Assembly: GCA_947475765.1 (NCBI GenBank)
Contig: CANJMM010000018.1
Coordinates: 1 to 34,102 of the forward strand
DNA from: Legionellales bacterium
GTDB lineage: Bacteria; Pseudomonadota; Gammaproteobacteria; Berkiellales; Berkiellaceae
Reading direction: 5' to 3'
DNA: 34,102 bases
How positions within the stretch are numbered: the stretch's first letter is position 1; each line of letters starts with the position of its first letter. This document shows positions 5,929 to 22,999 of the stretch, in pieces. The notes under the pieces are model-generated. The model saw only the letters and a list, made by a program, of their open reading frames with translations. It did no database searches and was not told where the DNA came from. The translations under genes were made by a program, and so were the position numbers.

Positions 5929-6588
5929 ATGTCTATAGAGCCCGTTTTTTTGTTGAGAGATAAGACCTATCAGGAAGAAATTGATTATAACTTTGTGAAA
6001 TATGCGTTGAATCACTATGCGTCACCCCGAAATGTGTTAACCAAGTTGCTTGAAAACGGACAGCTTATTCGGGTTAAAAAAGGTTTATATACATTTGGCA
6101 GTCGTTACAGAAAGCGTTTAATCAGTTTAGAAGTGCTTGCTAATTTGATATACGGCCCTTCTTACGTGTCTCGAGAATATGCGCTTCAGTATCATGGCAT
6201 GATACCTGAAGCGGTATATGAAATAACGAGTATGTCTATTAAGCGTTATAAGCAATTTGATACCCCACTTGGCAGCTTTAGTTATCAGCCCATTAATAAA
6301 AATGGGTTTTCTGTGGGGGTTAATTTAATTCGTCTTTCAAATTATCATAGCGTGCTGATGGCTTCCCCTGAAAAAGCATTGGCAGATTATGTTTATACCA
6401 GAGAAGATAGGCTCAAAAGTGTGGATGAGATGACGCGAGTATTATTGGAAGACTATAGAATAGACGAAGAGAAATTGATTCAGCTCGATAGAAAGTTGCT
6501 TGAAAAAATTTCCATACAATATAACCATGTTAATATTAAACTGCTTGAATTAGCAGTGAGTGACTTAAAATATGCACGCATTAATTGA
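5929..6588 (+). CDS. AbiEi-type antitoxin/transcriptional regulator (type IV TA), module 1
   Basis: A 219-residue protein. An N-terminal winged-helix region (about 20-60: NFVKYALNHYASPRNVLTKL, then LIRVKKGLYTFG) precedes the AbiEi core with SYVSREYALQYHGMIPE and ASPEKALADYVYT. In AbiE systems AbiEi represses the operon and counters the AbiEii toxin without a stable complex (type IV). It overlaps the toxin gene by 17 bp. The pair sits between a methyltransferase and a glycosyltransferase gene of the polysaccharide cluster, with its own putative operator upstream, so it looks like a later insertion. Confidence 0.85.
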   Translation: MSIEPVFLLRDKTYQEEIDYNFVKYALNHYASPRNVLTKLLENGQLIRVKKGLYTFGSRYRKRLISLEVLANLIYGPSYVSREYALQYHGMIPEAVYEITSMSIKRYKQFDTPLGSFSYQPINKNGFSVGVNLIRLSNYHSVLMASPEKALADYVYTREDRLKSVDEMTRVLLEDYRIDEEKLIQLDRKLLEKISIQYNHVNIKLLELAVSDLKYARIN

Positions 6589-7441
6589 AGAGATGTTAGA
6601 AAAATATCATTTACAAACGATAGCAGATGGCACAACTGCACTCAGGGAAATCATACAAGAAATTGCTTTAGTGGGGTTATGGCGAGCCAAGTTTTTTGAA
6701 CATGCAGCATTTTATGGTGGCACTGCATTACGTATTTTATACGGATTAGATAGATTTTCGGAAGATCTCGATTTTTCTTTACTCAAGCCAGATCCTGTGT
6801 TTTCTTTAAGTAAATATAATCATGCAATTAAAGACGAATTATCCGCCTTTGGATTTGAAGTTACCGTAATAGAAAAGATTAAAAATATTGAAACACCCAT
6901 TGAATCGGCTTTTATTAAAGCCAATACTAAAACAGAGCTGATTCATATTGGATTAAGAAATCAATTGATTGCGACTATTCCAAAAGATGCCGTAATTAAA
7001 ATAAAGCTAGAAATAGACACGAATCCCCCAAGCCATTTTAAAACAGAAGCCAAGGTACTTAAAGAGCCTATGCCTGTGTTTATTAATGTGTATGCGCCAT
7101 CTGATTTGTTTGCAGGAAAAATGCATGCATTGCTTTTTAGAGGGTGGTCAAACCGCATCAAAGGGAGAGATTGGTATGATTTTGTTTGGTTTGTTAAAAA
7201 CGGTATTTCTTTAAATTTAGACCATTTAGAAAAAAGAATGTGGCAAAGTGGACATTTGCCTGAGCAAGAGACACTAACGAAAGAAAATTTTTTAGTCCTA
7301 TTGAAAAATAAAATAGAGGGGTTAAATGTAGAGAAAGCCTTGTTAGATATTAAGCCATTTTTAAAAGATCAGCAGATTTTGAAAAATTGGTCGAATCCGT
7401 ATTTTTTAAGTTTGATGGCAGATATTAAATATGAATCCTAA
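6572..7441 (+). CDS. AbiEii-type nucleotidyltransferase toxin, module 1 (intact)
   Basis: A 289-residue protein of the AbiEii/AbiGii (DUF1814) family. The nucleotidyltransferase core is complete: FYGGTALR at 48-55, the metal-binding DLD of FSEDLDFSL at 65-67, and a third acidic position in IKLEIDTNPP at 147-149. DLFAGKMHALLFRGWSNRIKGRDWYDFVW follows, as is usual for the family. Family members inhibit growth by nucleotidyl transfer, for example to tRNA; the target here is unknown. It overlaps AbiEi at its start and the following GT2 gene at its end by 11 bp. Of the three AbiE modules in the window only this one keeps an apparently whole toxin. Confidence 0.87.
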   Translation: MHALIEEMLEKYHLQTIADGTTALREIIQEIALVGLWRAKFFEHAAFYGGTALRILYGLDRFSEDLDFSLLKPDPVFSLSKYNHAIKDELSAFGFEVTVIEKIKNIETPIESAFIKANTKTELIHIGLRNQLIATIPKDAVIKIKLEIDTNPPSHFKTEAKVLKEPMPVFINVYAPSDLFAGKMHALLFRGWSNRIKGRDWYDFVWFVKNGISLNLDHLEKRMWQSGHLPEQETLTKENFLVLLKNKIEGLNVEKALLDIKPFLKDQQILKNWSNPYFLSLMADIKYES

Positions 7442-13734: not shown

Positions 13735-14772
13735 ATGGCTTTATTAGATGATTTGCAATTAAAAACGATTTTAGCCTCAGCCCAAGAAGCAATTGCTAAG
13801 GCGAATAGTTTGGCAGAGTTAACGCATTGCCGGGTGACTTATTTTGGTAAAAAAGGTCATGTGACCCTTTTGTTAAAGCAATTAGGCAGCTTGAGCCCTG
13901 ACGAGAGAAAAGTCGCCGGTAAGCAAATCAATGATCTCAAACAAGAGCTAGAACAGCTATTAGAAGACAAAAAAAATACACTAGAAATATCCTTAGGCGA
14001 TACAGAGCTAAAAAAAACTTACCTGGATATTACCTTGCCGGGTCGGCAATCTTCGGTTGGTTCCTTGCATCCTATTACGCATACTAAGCATAAAATAATC
14101 AACATATTTGAAAAATTAGGCTTTGTGATATCTGAAGGCCCTGAAATCGAAAACGAATTTTATAACTTTGAGGCCTTAAATATTGGCCCCAATCATCCTG
14201 CCAGAGCCATGCAAGATACGTTTTACTTTGCTAACCAATTATTACTAAGAACCCATACTTCGCCGGTACAAATTAGATATATGCAAGAAAATCCGCCGCC
14301 AATTAAAATGCTTGCCCCTGGGCGAGTGTATCGCTGTGATTTTGATGTGACCCATACACCTATGTTTCATCAGGTTGAAGGCTTATTAGTCGACAAAAAT
14401 TGCACTTTTGGCGATTTAAAATATATTCTTAATTTATTTTTAAGTCATTTTTTTGAAAAAGACATTCCCACACGCTTTAGAGCCTCTTATTTTCCCTTTA
14501 CCGAGCCTTCCGCTGAAGTCGATATTCAGTGCGTACAGTGCCAAGGCGCGGGGTGCCGAATTTGCAAGCAAACCGGTTGGCTAGAAGTGATGGGCTGTGG
14601 CATGGTGCACCCAAAAGTATTAGAAAACGGGGGCATTAATCCAGAAGCCTATACAGGTTATGCTTTTGGTATGGGGGTAGAACGCTTTGCGATGTTAGAT
14701 TATAGCGTCGATGATATTAGGCTTTTTTATGAAAATGACGTGCGCTTATTAAAACAATTTTCAGGGGTATGA
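13735..14772 (+). CDS. pheS: phenylalanyl-tRNA synthetase alpha subunit
   Basis: A 345-residue catalytic subunit. An N-terminal coiled-coil arm (about 1-85) contains RVTYFGKKGHVT; the class II core follows with GSLHPITHTKHKIINIFEKLGF, FYNFEALNIGPNHPARAMQDTFYF, LLRTHTSPVQIR, APGRVYRCDFDVTHTPMFHQVEG, RFRASYFPFTEPSAEVDIQC and the motif 3 region GYAFGMGVERFAMLDY. It forms the (alpha-beta)2 enzyme with PheT. Length and motifs are normal. It ends one base before pheT. Confidence 0.97.
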   Translation: MALLDDLQLKTILASAQEAIAKANSLAELTHCRVTYFGKKGHVTLLLKQLGSLSPDERKVAGKQINDLKQELEQLLEDKKNTLEISLGDTELKKTYLDITLPGRQSSVGSLHPITHTKHKIINIFEKLGFVISEGPEIENEFYNFEALNIGPNHPARAMQDTFYFANQLLLRTHTSPVQIRYMQENPPPIKMLAPGRVYRCDFDVTHTPMFHQVEGLLVDKNCTFGDLKYILNLFLSHFFEKDIPTRFRASYFPFTEPSAEVDIQCVQCQGAGCRICKQTGWLEVMGCGMVHPKVLENGGINPEAYTGYAFGMGVERFAMLDYSVDDIRLFYENDVRLLKQFSGV

Positions 14773-14773
14773 T

Positions 14774-16885
14774 ATGCGTTTTAGTTTAGAATGGTTAAAA
14801 ACTTGGGTAAAAATAGAATTACCCCCTGAAGCATTAAGTTCAGCATTGACTTTGTCGGGATTAGAGGTAGATGCTATCGGTCAATATGCTAGTGTTGATA
14901 AAAAGATAGATAAAGATATATATATAGACATTGATTTTACCCCTAATAGAGGCGATTGTTTGTCTGTACAGGGCTTAGCCAGAGAAATAGCCGCCAAAAC
15001 AAATAGCGTATTTAAACCCGTCTATGATTTTGAAAAATTAGCGGAACTGGAATCAGACAGTAAAAAATTAGAGAGTAAAAAAATCACCCCTGATTTTGTT
15101 TTCCCAGTCACGATTATGCCTTCTGCCCAAACGGCTTGTCCCTTATATTTAGGCCGAGTGATACAAGATATTAATTTACAGGCACAAACGCCAGATTGGC
15201 TTAAATTAAAATTAGAAAAATCTGAGATTAAAAGCATACATCCTATTGTCGATATTTTAAATTATGTGATGATTGAATTGGGTCAACCCATGCATGCTTT
15301 TGATTTAAGCAAAATCGACTCAGAAATTAAGATTCGCCTGGCACAAAACCAAGAAAAAATAAAACTACTCGACGGCAAAGACATTGAGTTAAAAAATCAT
15401 ACCTTAGTGATTGCAGATAAAAATAACCCTATGGCCATTGCAGGCATCATGGGCGGCTTAGACAGCAGCATAACCGCGCATACTACGCAGATTTTTTTAG
15501 AAAGCGCCTGGTTTACACCAGAGGCCATAGCTGGAAAAGCCAGACAATATGGTTTGCACACAGATGCGTCTTATCGTTTCGAAAGAGGCGTAGATTATCA
15601 ACTCCCTTATCAGGCCATGCTCTTGGCCACGAGCTTAATTAGCACGATTTGTGGGGGAAAAATAGGACAGATCATTCGTTGCCAAACTCCTGAGTTGCCA
15701 ACCCAAGCTAAAAAGATAAGCTTACGCCTTGCCCAGGTAAAAAAAATATTAGGCTTGTCTTTAGAGGCGAATATCATCGCAGAAATCTTAAGCCGATTAG
15801 GGTGTGTTTGTTTATGGGAAGCCTTAAATCAGCAATGGCAGGTAACCATCCCAAGCTATCGCTATGATTTAAATATAGAAGTCGATTTAATCGAAGAAGT
15901 CGCCAGAATTTATGGCTATGAAAATATTCCGGCAACGCCCAGCTTAAGTACCCAAATAGTAGATAAAATCGAATCAGGCTTAACATTACATCGAGTCAAA
16001 CAGCATTTAGTTGGCCTAGGCTATCGAGAGGTTATTACTTATAGCTTTGTGCCCCCTAAATTAGAGGCTTTATTGAATCCAAAAGCAACAGGAATTAATT
16101 TAGCCAATCCCATTTCTCAAGAAATGTCGATGATGCGAACCAACTTGTTACCTGGATTAATTCAAACACTTCAGTTTAATTTGGCGCGTCAATGCTCAAA
16201 TTTGGCCATTTTTGAATCGGGATTATGTTTTTACTATCAAGCTGAAAAGCTTATTCAACAAAACAGAATCGCTGGATTATTATATGGTAAACGCCATGAA
16301 GAAAATTGGGCGAATTCTAGACAAACGGTCGATTTTTTTGATATCAAAGCAGATATAGAAAGCTTGCTCAAGCTCAAAAAAGGCGTGTTAAATGCCGTAA
16401 CTTGGGTGCGTGCCACACATCCTAGCTTTCATCCTGGCCAGTCTGCTGAATTGCATTATGACAATACGGTAATAGGCTGGGTAGGGGCAATAGCGCCTAG
16501 TTTGCTTTTAAAGCTGGATATTTCTGAGCCTGTTTATTATTTTGAATTAAAAACAGAGGCGCTATTAAAAACACCTCAGGTAATTTATAGTAAGTTTTCA
16601 TCTTTTCCGTCTATGCGTCGAGATTTGGCTTTTATTGTTCCAGAAGCGATTTCAGCACAAAGTATCTTAACTGAAATAAAAGAAACAGATCAGGCTTTAA
16701 TACAAGAAAGCTTTATTTTTGATGTATATAGAGGCAAAAATATTGAAATAGGTAAAAAAAGCTTAGCCCTAGGGATAATTTTTCAGCATCTTACTCGAAC
16801 ACTTGTAGAATCTGAAGTAGAGACAGTGATAACGGCTATTATCACTAAGTTAAAAAATAAATTTGGGATTGTATTAAGGGAATAA
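14774..16885 (+). CDS. pheT: phenylalanyl-tRNA synthetase beta subunit, short form without the OB-fold tRNA-binding (B2) domain
   Basis: A 703-residue subunit; usual bacterial PheT is near 790-800. The start [12 protein letters not shown] and LSGLEVD (27-33) are followed almost at once by [13 protein letters not shown] (52-64). In Escherichia coli about 120 residues, including the EMAPII-like OB-fold B2 domain, lie between these landmarks. The junction is a low-complexity Lys/Asp/Ile stretch. The editing B3/B4 region ([43 protein letters not shown]), B5, the synthetase-like core and the C-terminal FDX-ACB domain ([14 protein letters not shown]) are present. It should still pair with PheS. The frame is clean, so this is a domain loss rather than a pseudogene. 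Confidence 0.95.
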
Positions 16886-16890
16886 ATATT

Positions 16891-17217
16891 ATGACATTAA
16901 CTAAAGCAGAATTATCTGAATCATTAGCCTCACACCTTAAAATTCAAAAGGGCGAGGCCAAAGATCTGGTGGATGATGTTTTTGAAGAAATTCGACGGGC
17001 CTTAGAAAATGGCACTGAAGTTAAAATATCGGGTTTTGGTAATTTTGAGTTAAAAGACAAAAATCAACGTCCTGGTCGTAACCCTAAAACAGGTGAAGAT
17101 GTGGCCATTCAGGCAAGAAGAGTCGTGACCTTTAAACCGGGGCAAAAGCTTAAGGATAGAGTAGAACATTATGATCCGGCTCAGCCTGAAGTGGTGACAC
17201 CTGAAAAAGAAACCTAA
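16891..17217 (+). CDS. ihfA: integration host factor alpha subunit
   Basis: A 108-residue HU/IHF-fold protein: [14 protein letters not shown] at the N-terminus, [14 protein letters not shown] in the middle and the DNA-minor-groove arm [14 protein letters not shown], then [17 protein letters not shown]. With IhfB it bends DNA at specific sites for recombination, replication and transcription. Its position directly after pheT is the conserved gammaproteobacterial arrangement and supports the alpha assignment over HU. Confidence 0.95.
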
Positions 17218-17283: not shown

Positions 17284-17360
17284 CGGGGCGTAGCGCAGCC
17301 TGGTAGCGTACATGCATGGGGTGCATGTGGTCAGAGGTTCAAATCCTCTCGTCCCGACCA
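17284..17360 (+). tRNA. tRNA-Pro (anticodon GGG)
   Basis: A 77-base cloverleaf with encoded CCA. The acceptor stem CGGGGCG pairs with CGTCCCG (one G-T), the D stem is GCGC/GCGT, the anticodon stem CATGC/GCATG encloses the loop ATGGGGT with anticodon GGG, and the T stem AGAGG/CCTCT encloses TTCAAAT. It marks the left boundary of the accessory island; tRNA genes are common integration sites, but no second copy of its 3' end was seen within the window. Confidence 0.95.
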
Positions 17361-17555: not shown

Positions 17556-17637
17556 AGTTTATTTTTTAATAAATAAGTAAACTATGAGTATCCCTAATAT
17601 GATTAAAATAAACTATACTATCTCTAAAGTTTATTTT
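17556..17637 (+). promoter_or_regulatory. duplicated leader with AGTTTATTTT half-sites, candidate AbiEi operator (module 2)
   Basis: AAAATAAACT at 17605-17614 and AGTTTATTTT at 17628-17637 are a perfect 10-bp inverted repeat with a 13-base spacer. A further AGTTTATTTT begins at 17556 and TAAACT lies at 17578-17583. The whole stretch, including an ATG-AGT start, looks like a diverged 72-bp tandem duplication (about 17556-17627 and 17628-17699). The arrangement fits binding sites for the antitoxin encoded next. Confidence 0.5.
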
Positions 17638-17655
17638 AGATTAAAAAAGATTACT

Positions 17656-18483
17656 ATGAGTGTACCTAATTCAATAAATATAAACTATCCTGTAAGAGCA
17701 GTTGGTCAAACGAAAATAAGCCAACTTCTCAAATGCTGGCCTCAGGGTACCGTTTCGGTTCAACCTTGGTTAAATTCGCAGCAAGTTTCTAGGCATTTAG
17801 CCGTGAGGTATATCAAGGGTAAATGGCTTACTAAGATAGGCAAAGGTGCCTACATCAAAGAAGGCGAGGAAGTTGATTGGACTGGGGGTGTTTATGCGCT
17901 TCAGAGTCAATTGGATTTCAAGATTCATGTTGCAGGGCTGACAGCGCTAGAGTTATTAGGCTATGGTCATTTTATGCCCATGGGATCGGGTAACCTAAAG
18001 TGGTTGTCAAAGCACAAATCAGATAAGCGACCTTTACCGGTTTGGTTTAGATATTATTTTAAAAAAGACAATGTAATGTGCATAGAGCAAGGTTTGTTTG
18101 ATGCTGCTTGGGATGAAGCACTAGTTGAGCATACCGTTGGTGACTATAAGATAATGGTCGCAAATCCAGAGCGAGCCATATTGGAATTCCTGCATTTTGA
18201 TTCAAAAGGATCTTCAGTCGCACATGGTTTATTACTGATGGAAAATCTCACAACCCTACGGCCAAAAATAATACAAGAATTACTCGAGTCTTGTCAGTCA
18301 GTTAAGGTTAAGCGGTTGTTTTTAGTGTTAGCAGAGCACCTTAATCATCCTTGGGTAAAAAGGCTTAATGTCGAGAAGATAGATCTCGGCAAAGGAAAGA
18401 GAGTAGTCGGTAAGGGCGGGTATTATAATTCAAAATACCAGTTATCCTTGCCAGTCGATTTAAAAGAGGTTAATCAGACGTAA
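17656..18483 (+). CDS. AbiEi-type antitoxin/transcriptional regulator (type IV TA), module 2
   Basis: A 275-residue protein from the ATG at 17656; an in-frame ATG at 17584 would give 299 residues. The later start is preferred because residues 1-24 of the long form (MSIPNMIKINYT...) are a diverged copy of the next ones (MSVPNSININYP...) and because the inverted repeat at 17605-17637 would then lie upstream. Neither start has a good Shine-Dalgarno sequence. The family pattern is clear: ISQLLKCWPQGTVSVQPWL, a winged-helix stretch with KGKWLTKIGKGAYIKEGEEVDWTGGVYALQSQ, HVAGLTALELLGYGHF and VANPERAILEFL. Its toxin partner is reduced to about 25 codons just downstream, so this is an orphan antitoxin or regulator. 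Confidence 0.82.
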   Translation: MSVPNSININYPVRAVGQTKISQLLKCWPQGTVSVQPWLNSQQVSRHLAVRYIKGKWLTKIGKGAYIKEGEEVDWTGGVYALQSQLDFKIHVAGLTALELLGYGHFMPMGSGNLKWLSKHKSDKRPLPVWFRYYFKKDNVMCIEQGLFDAAWDEALVEHTVGDYKIMVANPERAILEFLHFDSKGSSVAHGLLLMENLTTLRPKIIQELLESCQSVKVKRLFLVLAEHLNHPWVKRLNVEKIDLGKGKRVVGKGGYYNSKYQLSLPVDLKEVNQT

Positions 18484-18773: not shown

Positions 18774-19079
18774 ATGATATCAGTTAACATGATAACGCCA
18801 CAAGAGATGCAAAAGGCAATAGCTAAGCAACTGCGTCGCTTACGACTTGAACTTAATTTAAGCCAGCAGACCTTGTCAGAAAAATCAGGGGTAAGTTACG
18901 GCTCTTTAAAAAAGTTTGAGCAAACAGGCCAAATCTCTTTAGCCTCTTTACTCAAGTTGGCGCTGGTTCTTGGGAGCATGGATGATTTTAAGATGCTGTT
19001 TGCTGAAAAAAGTGCGGAAAAAGCCTTATCCCTTGATGAATTGATCAAAGAGGAAAAAAGGGAAAGAGGAAGAAAATGA
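18774..19079 (+). CDS. hipB: HipB-like XRE-family antitoxin/repressor
   Basis: A 101-residue protein with a Cro/CI-type helix-turn-helix at about 19-70: IAKQLRRLRLELNLSQQTLSEKSGVSYGSLKKFEQTG and ISLASLLKLALVL. The C-terminal tail is charged (DELIKEEKRERGRK). The ATG overlaps nothing upstream and has a promoter and inverted repeat in front; its TGA overlaps the ATG of the HipA-like gene by four bases. HipB proteins bind HipA and repress the operon. An internal ATG at 18789 is also possible but no better supported. Confidence 0.85.
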   Translation: MISVNMITPQEMQKAIAKQLRRLRLELNLSQQTLSEKSGVSYGSLKKFEQTGQISLASLLKLALVLGSMDDFKMLFAEKSAEKALSLDELIKEEKRERGRK

Positions 19080-20278
19080 GTCTGATATCCCAAAATCTTG
19101 TGTATGTTTATTATCACGGATCCGTCAAAAGGCAGCTCATGGGCCGATTATTGCTAAAAAATAGACAGATATTTTTTGAATATGATTCTGCTTTTATCAA
19201 AACGATGCTTGAATTATCACCTTTTAAGCTTCCTCTTAAATCCGGCGTAATCGCTTCAAATGATCGAACATTTGAAGGGTTGTTTGGCGTGTTTAATGAC
19301 AGCTTGCCAGATGGTTGGGGGCGATTACTTCTGGAACGTAAAATAATGAATGAGGGGGTTAATCCTGGAATGCTTTCTCCAATTGATCGCCTTTGTTTTG
19401 TTGGAAATAGGGGGATGGGGGCGTTATCTTTTGAACCGGAAAATCCACATCCCGATTTGATCTTTTCTAAAAATTTAGATGAAATTGAGCATGAAATTCA
19501 AGCTACTTTAGGTGAAAATGAAAATGATCGTTACGTAGAGGATTTGTTGATTTTAGGGGGCTCTTCAGGAGGAGCTCGTCCTAAAGTTTTGCTCCATATT
19601 GATAATGAAGATTGGCTCATAAAGTTTAGGTCTAGCCTCGATCCTAAAGATATAAGCGCAATTGAATATGCGTATCACAATATGGCAAAAGAGGCTGGGC
19701 TGATTGTGCCAAAAGCAAAACTTTTCCCTTCAAGGAAGGGCGTAGGCTTTTTTGGCGTTAAGCGTTTTGATAGGCATGGTGATGAGCGTATTCATATGCA
19801 TACCATAGCAGGTCTTTTGCATGCAGATCATCGGGAACCCTCGCTTGATTATGAAAGCATCATGAAAGCAACTTTGTATTTGACAAGAGATGTGGGGCAG
19901 TGTGAGGTGCAATTTAGAAATGCTGTTTTTAATGTCCTCAGCCATAATCGGGACGATCATTCCAAAAACTTTTCATTTTTGATGGATTCAGGTGGTAAAT
20001 GGACGGTATCGCCAGCTTATGACTTAACTTTTTCTTCTGGCCCTTCGGGTGAGCATTCTACAATGATCATGGGCGAAGGAAAAAACCCGACAAAAGCGCA
20101 TTTATTAAAACTGGCAAGTGTTGGGAATATAAAACAAGATAAGGCTTTAGAGATTATTGGCCAGGTTTTATCGGCGACGGCGAAATGGTCTGGATTTGCA
20201 AGTGATGCGGGTGTTTCAAAGTTACAGATTAAAAATATTCGAGAGTCGTTGAGTTTGATTTATAAAAGCTTTGGCTGA
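19076..20278 (+). CDS. hipA: HipA-like serine/threonine kinase toxin
   Basis: A 400-residue protein with the HipA N-terminal subdomain (FEGLFGVFNDSLPDGWGRLLLER) and C-terminal kinase. GGSSGGARPK at 161-170 corresponds to the glycine-rich loop containing the autophosphorylation serine; LIKF carries the ATP-binding lysine; the catalytic loop is HNRDDHSKNF with D284 in the position of Escherichia coli D309, and PAYDLT with D306 is the metal-binding aspartate. All expected catalytic residues are present, so the toxin looks functional. HipA kinases phosphorylate aminoacyl-tRNA synthetases (GltX in E. coli); the target here is unknown. It forms an operon with hipB (4-bp overlap). Confidence 0.88.
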   Translation: MSLISQNLVYVYYHGSVKRQLMGRLLLKNRQIFFEYDSAFIKTMLELSPFKLPLKSGVIASNDRTFEGLFGVFNDSLPDGWGRLLLERKIMNEGVNPGMLSPIDRLCFVGNRGMGALSFEPENPHPDLIFSKNLDEIEHEIQATLGENENDRYVEDLLILGGSSGGARPKVLLHIDNEDWLIKFRSSLDPKDISAIEYAYHNMAKEAGLIVPKAKLFPSRKGVGFFGVKRFDRHGDERIHMHTIAGLLHADHREPSLDYESIMKATLYLTRDVGQCEVQFRNAVFNVLSHNRDDHSKNFSFLMDSGGKWTVSPAYDLTFSSGPSGEHSTMIMGEGKNPTKAHLLKLASVGNIKQDKALEIIGQVLSATAKWSGFASDAGVSKLQIKNIRESLSLIYKSFG

Positions 20279-20385: not shown

Positions 20386-20784
20386 TTGATCAATTCAAAA
20401 CGAAATGACTTCATTCATCAAATATCTGCAAAACTAGCCGACAAAAACCAAGCGACGAGCTTTGCGATAGAAGATCTTCACATCAAAGGCATGGTCCAAA
20501 ACCACAAACTGGCGAGAGCCATATCGGATTGTGGTTGGCGGAGGTTTCTCAACGCCTTGTCTTATAAATGTGATTGGAATGGAAAAAATGTTATCAAGAT
20601 AGGCCGATTTGCAGCAAGTTCTAAAACGTGCAGTGCCAGCGGTGTCAAACAAGAAAAATTACCCCCCTCTATTCGAGAATGGGCATGTTCTTGCGGTGCC
20701 CAGCATGATAGGGATATCAATGCGGCTATCATGATAAAACAATTTTCCTTAGCACAACCGCCAGGACAATGCGCGGCTGCATAA
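20386..20784 (+). pseudogene. tnpB: TnpB (IS200/IS605 OrfB) C-terminal fragment
   Basis: About 130 residues corresponding to the C-terminal third of a TnpB RNA-guided nuclease. SFAIEDLHIKGM holds the RuvC-II glutamate, followed by NHKLARAISDCGWRRF and the zinc-ribbon region SSKTCSASG...WACSCG, then QHDRDINAAI with the RuvC-III aspartate. The N-terminal two-thirds, including RuvC-I, are absent; the frame is closed by a TAA near 20359, and 20386 is a TTG rather than a true start. The second zinc cysteine of the first C-x2-C pair is serine. The remnant keeps its own right end downstream but cannot encode an active nuclease. Confidence 0.85.
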
Positions 20785-21372: not shown

Positions 21373-22188
21373 GTGAATATAAAAGAATTCATGTATGTGC
21401 ACCCAATTTTTCAGTTGAATGAATTTGAAAATTGGAAACGTGCAAAGGGAGAAATTAAAGACTCTTCGATTCATTCTTCTATCAACTATTTGATAGGATC
21501 CGGACAGATCAAAAGAATTCGTCGTGAGCTATTTGGCGTAATTCCACCTAATGAAAATGCTAATACTGTTAATTTTGATAAGTATTTGATTGCAGCTAAA
21601 ATTGTTGATGATAGTATTTTGGCATACCATACTGCGTTAGAACTGCATGGGTTGGCTTATTCTTCTTTCGAGCAATTAACATTTTTAACAAATAAAAAGA
21701 TTAAACCTTTAGAAATTTATTCAAATTGGTTTCAGTCCGTACAAACGCCTAAAGTTTTAAAAGATGAAAAATTAGAGAATTTTTTCACTCAGGAAATTGA
21801 TCGGCAAGGGGTTAAAGTCAAAATAACGAATATTTCACGTACATTTGTTGATGTTATCGATCGCCATGATTTAAGCGGTGGATGGGAAGAAGTGGTTCGT
21901 TCAGTAAGCAATATTGCGACATTAAATGTTGAAGAGGTATTTGAATATTGTTTAACTCGAAAAAATAATACGTTAAGCGCTAAAGTGGGTTATTTTTTAG
22001 AACAGCGAATAGGGGCTTTTTCTCCACCTATAGAGATAATTGAAAAATTAATAAAATTATCCCCATCTAAACCCCAGTATATTGGTAATATAGCTAAAGA
22101 AAAACATAAATTAATAAAAAAATGGAATTTAATGGTTCCAGTGAATGTGGTAAGTCAAATGTGGAATGAGCCGAATTATGATGTCTAA
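21373..22188 (+). CDS. AbiEi-type antitoxin/transcriptional regulator (COG5340-like), module 3
   Basis: A 271-residue protein from a GTG start with GGAGA about 11 bases upstream; the next in-frame ATG is at 21391. An N-terminal winged-helix region (SSIHSSINYLIGSGQIKRIRRELFGVI) precedes the AbiEi core with DDSILAYHTALELHGLAYSSF and ISRTFVDVIDRHDLSGGWEEV. It differs in subfamily from the other two AbiEi proteins in the window. It overlaps the AbiEii gene by up to 23 bp. Since its toxin partner has lost the DxD segment, it may now act mainly as a regulator. Confidence 0.85.
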   Translation: MNIKEFMYVHPIFQLNEFENWKRAKGEIKDSSIHSSINYLIGSGQIKRIRRELFGVIPPNENANTVNFDKYLIAAKIVDDSILAYHTALELHGLAYSSFEQLTFLTNKKIKPLEIYSNWFQSVQTPKVLKDEKLENFFTQEIDRQGVKVKITNISRTFVDVIDRHDLSGGWEEVVRSVSNIATLNVEEVFEYCLTRKNNTLSAKVGYFLEQRIGAFSPPIEIIEKLIKLSPSKPQYIGNIAKEKHKLIKKWNLMVPVNVVSQMWNEPNYDV

Positions 22189-22999
22189 AGAAACATTAAT
22201 AAGCCAGGCAAGAAAGTTTGATTATAAACCTGAAAATTATGAGAAGGTTTATAAATTACTGTTTGTTTTAGAGCAGTTTATGTCTGTTCCGTATTTAAAA
22301 GATCGGCTTGTTTTAAAAGGAGGTACGGCACTTATTGAACAACAACGTGCTCCAACACAACATGCCGGGGGAAAAAACGTTTGGAAATATGATAGTGCTT
22401 TAGGTCAAAAAGGTAATTTAGAAATTGACCTAAACTATATGTTCAGAAATCCTTTATGGCCAATAATCGAACTTGAATCTAAACTATCTTTTTCAAATTC
22501 ATTAAAAGTGCCTGTTTTAGATATTCATGAGTTGGCTTCAGGGAAGTTGTCGGCCTTGTTTGCAAGAAAGGTAAGCCGAGACTTTTTTGACGCGCATTAT
22601 TTACTCACGAAATGTAATTTAAGCAAATCAAAGTTGCGAGAAACATTTGTAGTTTATGCGGCCTTTTCTACTTCTTTAGTTGAAGATGTATCAATTAAAT
22701 CTGTACAATATGATGTAATAGATATTCGAAATAAACTTTTTCCTGTTTTGAAACAAAAAGAGACATCAAGAAAAAAGATTCATATTGAAAAATGGGCAAA
22801 TCAACTGCTATCAGAATTAAGGGGGAGCCTTTCTATTATATTACCACTTCAAAAAAATGAACTGGATTTTATAAGGCTTATACGTGAGCAGGGTGAAATA
22901 AAACCTGAATTGATAACGGATAATGAAAGTTTGATCGAATCTATTTTGATGCATCCTCTGCTAAAATGGAATGCCATGAAGGTACATATGAAAAAATAA
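22166..22999 (+). CDS. AbiEii-type nucleotidyltransferase toxin, module 3, with in-frame loss of the DxD segment
   Basis: A 277-residue protein of the COG2253/AbiEii group; the likely biological start is the ATG at 22181 (MSKETLISQARKFDYKPENY). LVLKGGTALI at 48-57 should lead into the N-L-F...R-L-S-V-D-I-D-L segment that carries the two metal-binding aspartates. Instead it jumps to EQQRAPTQHAGGKNVWKYDSALGQ, which belongs well downstream of them. The rest follows the family: NLEIDLNYMFRNPLWP, VPVLDIHELASGKLSALFAR and SRDFFDAHYLL. The frame is open, so the result is a deletion of roughly 50 residues and a probably inactive toxin. The antitoxin partner overlaps its start. Confidence 0.85.
   Translation: MSRIMMSKETLISQARKFDYKPENYEKVYKLLFVLEQFMSVPYLKDRLVLKGGTALIEQQRAPTQHAGGKNVWKYDSALGQKGNLEIDLNYMFRNPLWPIIELESKLSFSNSLKVPVLDIHELASGKLSALFARKVSRDFFDAHYLLTKCNLSKSKLRETFVVYAAFSTSLVEDVSIKSVQYDVIDIRNKLFPVLKQKETSRKKIHIEKWANQLLSELRGSLSIILPLQKNELDFIRLIREQGEIKPELITDNESLIESILMHPLLKWNAMKVHMKK

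Follow-up and report, generated by a model that had tools for sequence, protein, structure and literature searches.

The β subunit of the essential phenylalanyl-tRNA synthetase (PheRS) encoded by pheT in the window, the whole stretch of 34,102 nucleotides analysed here, lacks the B2 domain, and the loss of this domain is vertically conserved in the bacterium's family and recurrent in mostly small-genome Gammaproteobacteria. B2 is usual, though not universal, in bacterial-type PheRS β subunits, where it is nested as an insertion within the B1 domain. The gene likely encodes a functional bacterial-type β subunit whose B2 was lost before the family diversified, with ordinary charging of tRNA-Phe and with editing that is kept and probably weaker. 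This is a real, largely expected simplification of an already described kind.

Domain content and predicted fold of PheT

The pheT gene (14774..16885, forward strand, as are its parts and the pheS and ihfA-like genes given below) encodes a protein of 703 aa that scores 676.4 bits against the TIGR00472 equivalog model (cut-off 402.65), identifying it as a bacterial-type PheRS β subunit. It is the only PheT match in the genome from which the window derives, a draft in 90 contigs with an estimated completeness of 98.9%, and is therefore single-copy there. Four downstream domains were recovered above their Pfam gathering cut-offs, namely the B3/B4 editing domain (residues 121–294, 15134..15655; PF03483, E 6e-69), B5 (residues 315–382, 15716..15919; PF03484, E 9e-24), the catalytic-like module B6/B7, or CLM (residues 389–593, 15938..16552; PF17759, E 2e-60), and the B8 anticodon-binding FDX-ACB domain (residues 609–702, 16598..16879; PF03147, E 5e-28). 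The N-terminal half of B1 occupies residues 1–37 (14774..14884), ending in a strand at about residues 31–37, as placed by alignment to E. coli residues 1–38 and by the AlphaFold elements. Its C-terminal half, supported by PF18262, the E. coli alignment and AlphaFold, comprises residues 49–75 (14918..14998), with a strand at about 49–54, the TPNRGDC motif and a helix at 65–75. The PF18262 profile for B1 aligns in a single stretch (residues 8–73 to profile positions 11–78) at a sub-threshold 22.0 bits against a required 26.8, and the presence of B1 is indicated by this contiguous match together with the correspondence of both halves to E. coli PheT and the modelled fold.

The Pfam scan of this protein found no tRNA_bind domain (PF01588), the EMAPII/OB fold that constitutes B2. 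The same scan applied to a B2-containing relative (L008) returned tRNA_bind at residues 45–145 with an E value of 5e-25, so the missing match is not a problem of sensitivity. In the alignment to E. coli PheT (3pco_B), residues 1–38 pair with 1–38 and residues 44–702 with 152–794, leaving E. coli residues 39–151 absent and about six residues standing in their place. The LSGLEVD motif lies at residues 27–33 and an 11-residue motif begins at residue 54; the distance from GLEVD to TPNRGD is 27 residues, compared with about 134 in B2-containing relatives. The joint itself (residues 38–48, 14885..14917), situated where other PheT proteins carry the B2 insertion, is assigned by the alignments and by AlphaFold to a predicted hairpin loop. 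The initial annotation, which had proposed that PheT lacks its B2 OB fold while keeping all remaining domains, editing included, in a clean loss, was thus borne out by the Pfam matches, the E. coli alignment and the L008 control.

Structure prediction, which the initial annotation had suggested alongside alignment to full-length PheT, agrees with this picture, E. coli residues 39–151 being missing and B1 closed. An AlphaFold model of residues 1–300 reached a pTM of 0.88. Its superposition on E. coli PheT, with a TM score of 0.84, extends across about 410 columns, as expected if about 110 residues are missing relative to the E. coli protein. In this model, strands at about 32–37 and 49–53 close B1 with the loop 38–48 between them, and B1 is accordingly predicted to close as a β-hairpin in the absence of B2. 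As B2 is inserted into a B1 loop, its removal rejoins two adjacent B1 strands and leaves the parent domain intact. A model of the whole subunit showed good local confidence (pLDDT 87.5) with a pTM of only 0.59 and a TM score of about 0.5, probably because the domains of the isolated subunit float relative to one another.

The gene stands in ordinary surroundings. It follows an intact pheS (13735..14772; PF01409, PF02912, TIGR00468), encoding an α subunit with an N-terminal coiled coil, and an ihfA-like gene taken from the table of open reading frames lies directly downstream (16891..17217); this is the usual order, the canonical E. coli arrangement being thrS-infC-rplT-pheS-pheT-ihfA. Comparison with the congener (G001) gave a nucleotide identity of 75%, a dN of 0.155, a dS of 1.49 that is near saturation and a dN/dS of about 0.10, and the gene is under purifying selection. 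Elsewhere in the window, AbiEi/AbiEii-type toxin–antitoxin or defence gene pairs occur at 5929–7441 and 21373–22999, the AbiEii of the latter (22166–22999) apparently missing an internal segment, as its alignment from residue 60 corresponds to the profile from position 103, and a lone AbiEi lies at 17584–18483. A helix-turn-helix gene paired with a HipA-like kinase gene (HipBA-type, 18774–20278) is found downstream of a tRNA-Pro gene (17284–17360), which suggests a variable island beside this tRNA gene, and a C-terminal fragment of a TnpB/OrfB-type protein (IS605 family) with a Cas12f-like TNB domain is present at 20386–20784.

Distribution and recurrence of the B2-less state

The survey of relatives, also among the checks first suggested, placed the loss in a wider context. 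Within the family, 11 of the 12 genomes with a PheT match are B2-less, with PheT proteins of about 680–700 aa. The twelfth (G002, locus L059) has 92 aa inserted where B2 would lie, at about residues 36–127, without a PF01588 match; a decayed B2 was considered for this insert and dismissed, as it has no detectable homology with an HMM built for B2. At the level of the class, genomes were searched with a profile of contiguous B1, a match spanning the joint being scored as B2-less; 22 of the 360 matched genomes, from 13 families, were B2-less, and nearly all others matched in two pieces. Across the phylum, 393 genomes gave matches in a sample of mostly very complete genomes that is biased to well-assembled, mostly large ones; here the joint was spanned, among the matches listed, by the window's genome only. 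The loss is associated with small genomes: 20 of the 22 B2-less genomes in the class sample measure 2.0 Mb or less, compared with 62 of the 338 others (Fisher p 3e-12, relatedness being ignored and size classes having been transcribed by hand from the class-sample listing). Two B2-less genomes of the window's family are large (G004, 3.0 Mb; G005, 3.6 Mb), and the loss is therefore not accounted for by genome reduction alone. The domain loss first noted is real and precise and spares the other domains, but it is not isolated, as it is the normal state of the family and recurs in further Gammaproteobacteria, most of them with small genomes.

Whether the B2-less state reflects repeated loss, or instead a form of PheT shared across families through deep ancestry or horizontal spread, was weighed with an rpoB tree covering 54 genomes. 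The second reading draws on the identical joint length in many families and on the grouping of the window's family with two other B2-less families, represented by G134 and G317 (support 94, under the threshold for starred branches), from which the loss in this part of the tree appears to be older than the family. Against it, the B2-less state requires at least eight changes on the tree, three of which follow necessarily from branches with strong support, and an AU test rejected a single clade for all B2-less genomes (p-AU 2.4e-5), from which it follows that the loss is recurrent. The clearest independent event is that of G100, which lacks B2 and is sister to the B2-containing G208 of the same family with 99% SH-aLRT support; the operon order, native in the window, also speaks against horizontal spread. 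The exact number of losses is uncertain, since the tree has long branches and its inner ones are mostly weak, and an ancestral or horizontally acquired form without repeated loss is considered improbable.

Two further readings would leave B2 in place, in the gene or elsewhere in the cell. An assembly or sequencing artefact, in which a deletion collapsed in the draft conceals a true pheT with B2, might be entertained given the 90 contigs and the low complexity of the joint DNA, but it is refuted by the B2-less PheT of the 11 independently assembled genomes of the family, two of them in 2–3 contigs; the same 20-residue joint recurs in most of these genomes, the reading frame in the window is intact, and the artefact retains a practically negligible probability. 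A transfer of the B2 function to a separate OB-fold protein acting in trans, the alternative that the initial annotation had raised against its own reading, has in its favour a second, free-standing PF01588 match in three genomes of the same family (G004, G005 and G006). In the whole 98.9% complete genome of the window, however, the single PF01588 match is the C-terminus of methionyl-tRNA synthetase (MetRS), which argues that no copy of B2 is available in trans; most B2-less genomes likewise have one match and two have none, and the free-standing proteins match CsaA models rather than PheT, making a relocated B2 very improbable. Recurrent loss of B2, vertically conserved within the family, is thus the preferred reading.

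The free-standing tRNA-binding OB proteins of G004, G005 and G006 (L182, L183 and L184) are absent from the window's genome; NCBIfam typing assigns L182 and L183 to the CsaA-type tRNA-binding proteins, and the G004 protein is encoded on a 70-kb contig. In four small genomes (G340, G174, G141 and G044), the best PF01588 match is a free-standing open reading frame of 111–115 aa, while it is a MetRS-sized one in other genomes, which suggests, from sequence, a split MetRS in these bacteria.

The joint and the editing site

Most B2-less enzymes have exactly 20 residues from GLEVD to TPNRGD, and longer joints of 22 and 33 residues are found in the congener and G004, respectively, in addition to the 27 of the window. 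The low-complexity DNA that the initial annotation had described at the joint is present, but it is genus-specific, and the congener lacks five of the residues concerned. A deletion scar, considered as its origin, can be ruled out, since the joints of relatives that share the deletion are short and plain; judged from these sequences, the low-complexity joint is best described as having expanded later, within the window's genus, in a loop that tolerates such growth. One B2-less protein of the survey (L049 of G238) has as its joint a 35-aa low-complexity linker rich in Asn, Asp and Glu.

At the editing site, for which the roles of the residues have been described in T. thermophilus numbering (PMC3275996), residues 163, 174, 224 and 243 correspond to Asn250, His261, Gly315 and Glu334 and are all kept. 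In the alignment, the position of Thr249 in the editing pocket is occupied by Leu162 (15257..15259). Across 54 sequences, the equivalent of Thr249 is a residue other than Thr, most often Leu, in 25 of the 28 B2-less enzymes compared with 6 of the 26 B2-containing ones, a difference that would fit a link to editing but, with too few independent pairs on the tree, may equally reflect shared ancestry. Two B2-less enzymes depart further at the conserved positions, with Asn250 replaced by Ala and His261 by Gln in G317, and His261 by Gln in G085. It is conceivable, although on balance unlikely, that repeated B2 loss is coupled to a remodelling of the editing pocket and would mark the visible onset of a repeated, stepwise loosening of Phe/Tyr proofreading in these bacteria. 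An unusual tRNA-Phe was considered as compensation for the loss of B2 and rejected, the tRNA-Phe gene of the window's genome (GAA anticodon) being ordinary by inspection of its sequence.

Comparison with known systems and functional outlook

The bacterial PheRS β subunits of E. coli, P. aeruginosa and T. thermophilus (TIGR00472) share with the window's PheT the gene, the operon and the domains B1, B3/B4, B5, B6/B7 and B8, and differ from it in possessing B2 (PF01588); in structural alignment, the protein is 36–37% identical to the E. coli and P. aeruginosa subunits. Archaeal and eukaryotic cytosolic β subunits (3l4g, 2cxi) of about 590 aa have the N-terminal and editing regions in common with it, but they belong to another subfamily without B8 and match only partially (TM 0.40–0.43). 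The closest precedent for a natural absence is provided by the PheRS β subunits of CPR bacteria, many of which lack B2 (PMC5370408, e.g. OGE14653.1). These are known here by description, and the described trait, with nothing between the halves of B1, is found in the window's PheT; CPR ancestry is not, one relative being an uncultured gammaproteobacterium, with which gene order and relatives agree. The same B2 domain was the subject of a laboratory study of another enzyme by Roy & Ibba (2006), whose title, as cited in PMC5370408 for B2, calls this RNA-binding domain of PheRS ‘dispensable’ and credits it with a contribution to editing. Considering this description and the absence of B2 from many CPR enzymes, its loss here is unsurprising. 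Loss of editing is common in host-restricted bacteria (PMC10057733), and the editing-defective PheRS of Mycoplasma likewise illustrates the erosion of a fidelity module in reduced, host-restricted genomes; there, however, loss or mutation affects the editing domain or site itself, whereas the window's PheT keeps the key editing residues.

Structures of the M. tuberculosis PheRS–tRNA complex place the tRNA contacts in α1, β6 and β8 and the editing site in β3/4 (PMC12447630). In the explanation we favour, the nested B2 would have dropped out of the B1 loop before the window's family diversified, and the two adjacent B1 strands would have rejoined as a hairpin, the rest of the fold remaining unchanged. 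Aminoacylation of tRNA-Phe would proceed normally through contacts with the α coiled coil, B6 and B8, and post-transfer editing at B3/B4 would persist, probably less efficiently because B2 normally contributes to it. Small-genome lineages, probably mostly host-associated, may tolerate such a loss.

The present understanding of tRNA charging by PheRS is unchanged by this finding, which adds one more fidelity-related module to those worn away in small-genome bacteria. The natural, repeated and independent losses lend themselves to a comparative study of the part that B2 plays in tRNA handling and in the proofreading of Tyr-tRNA-Phe.
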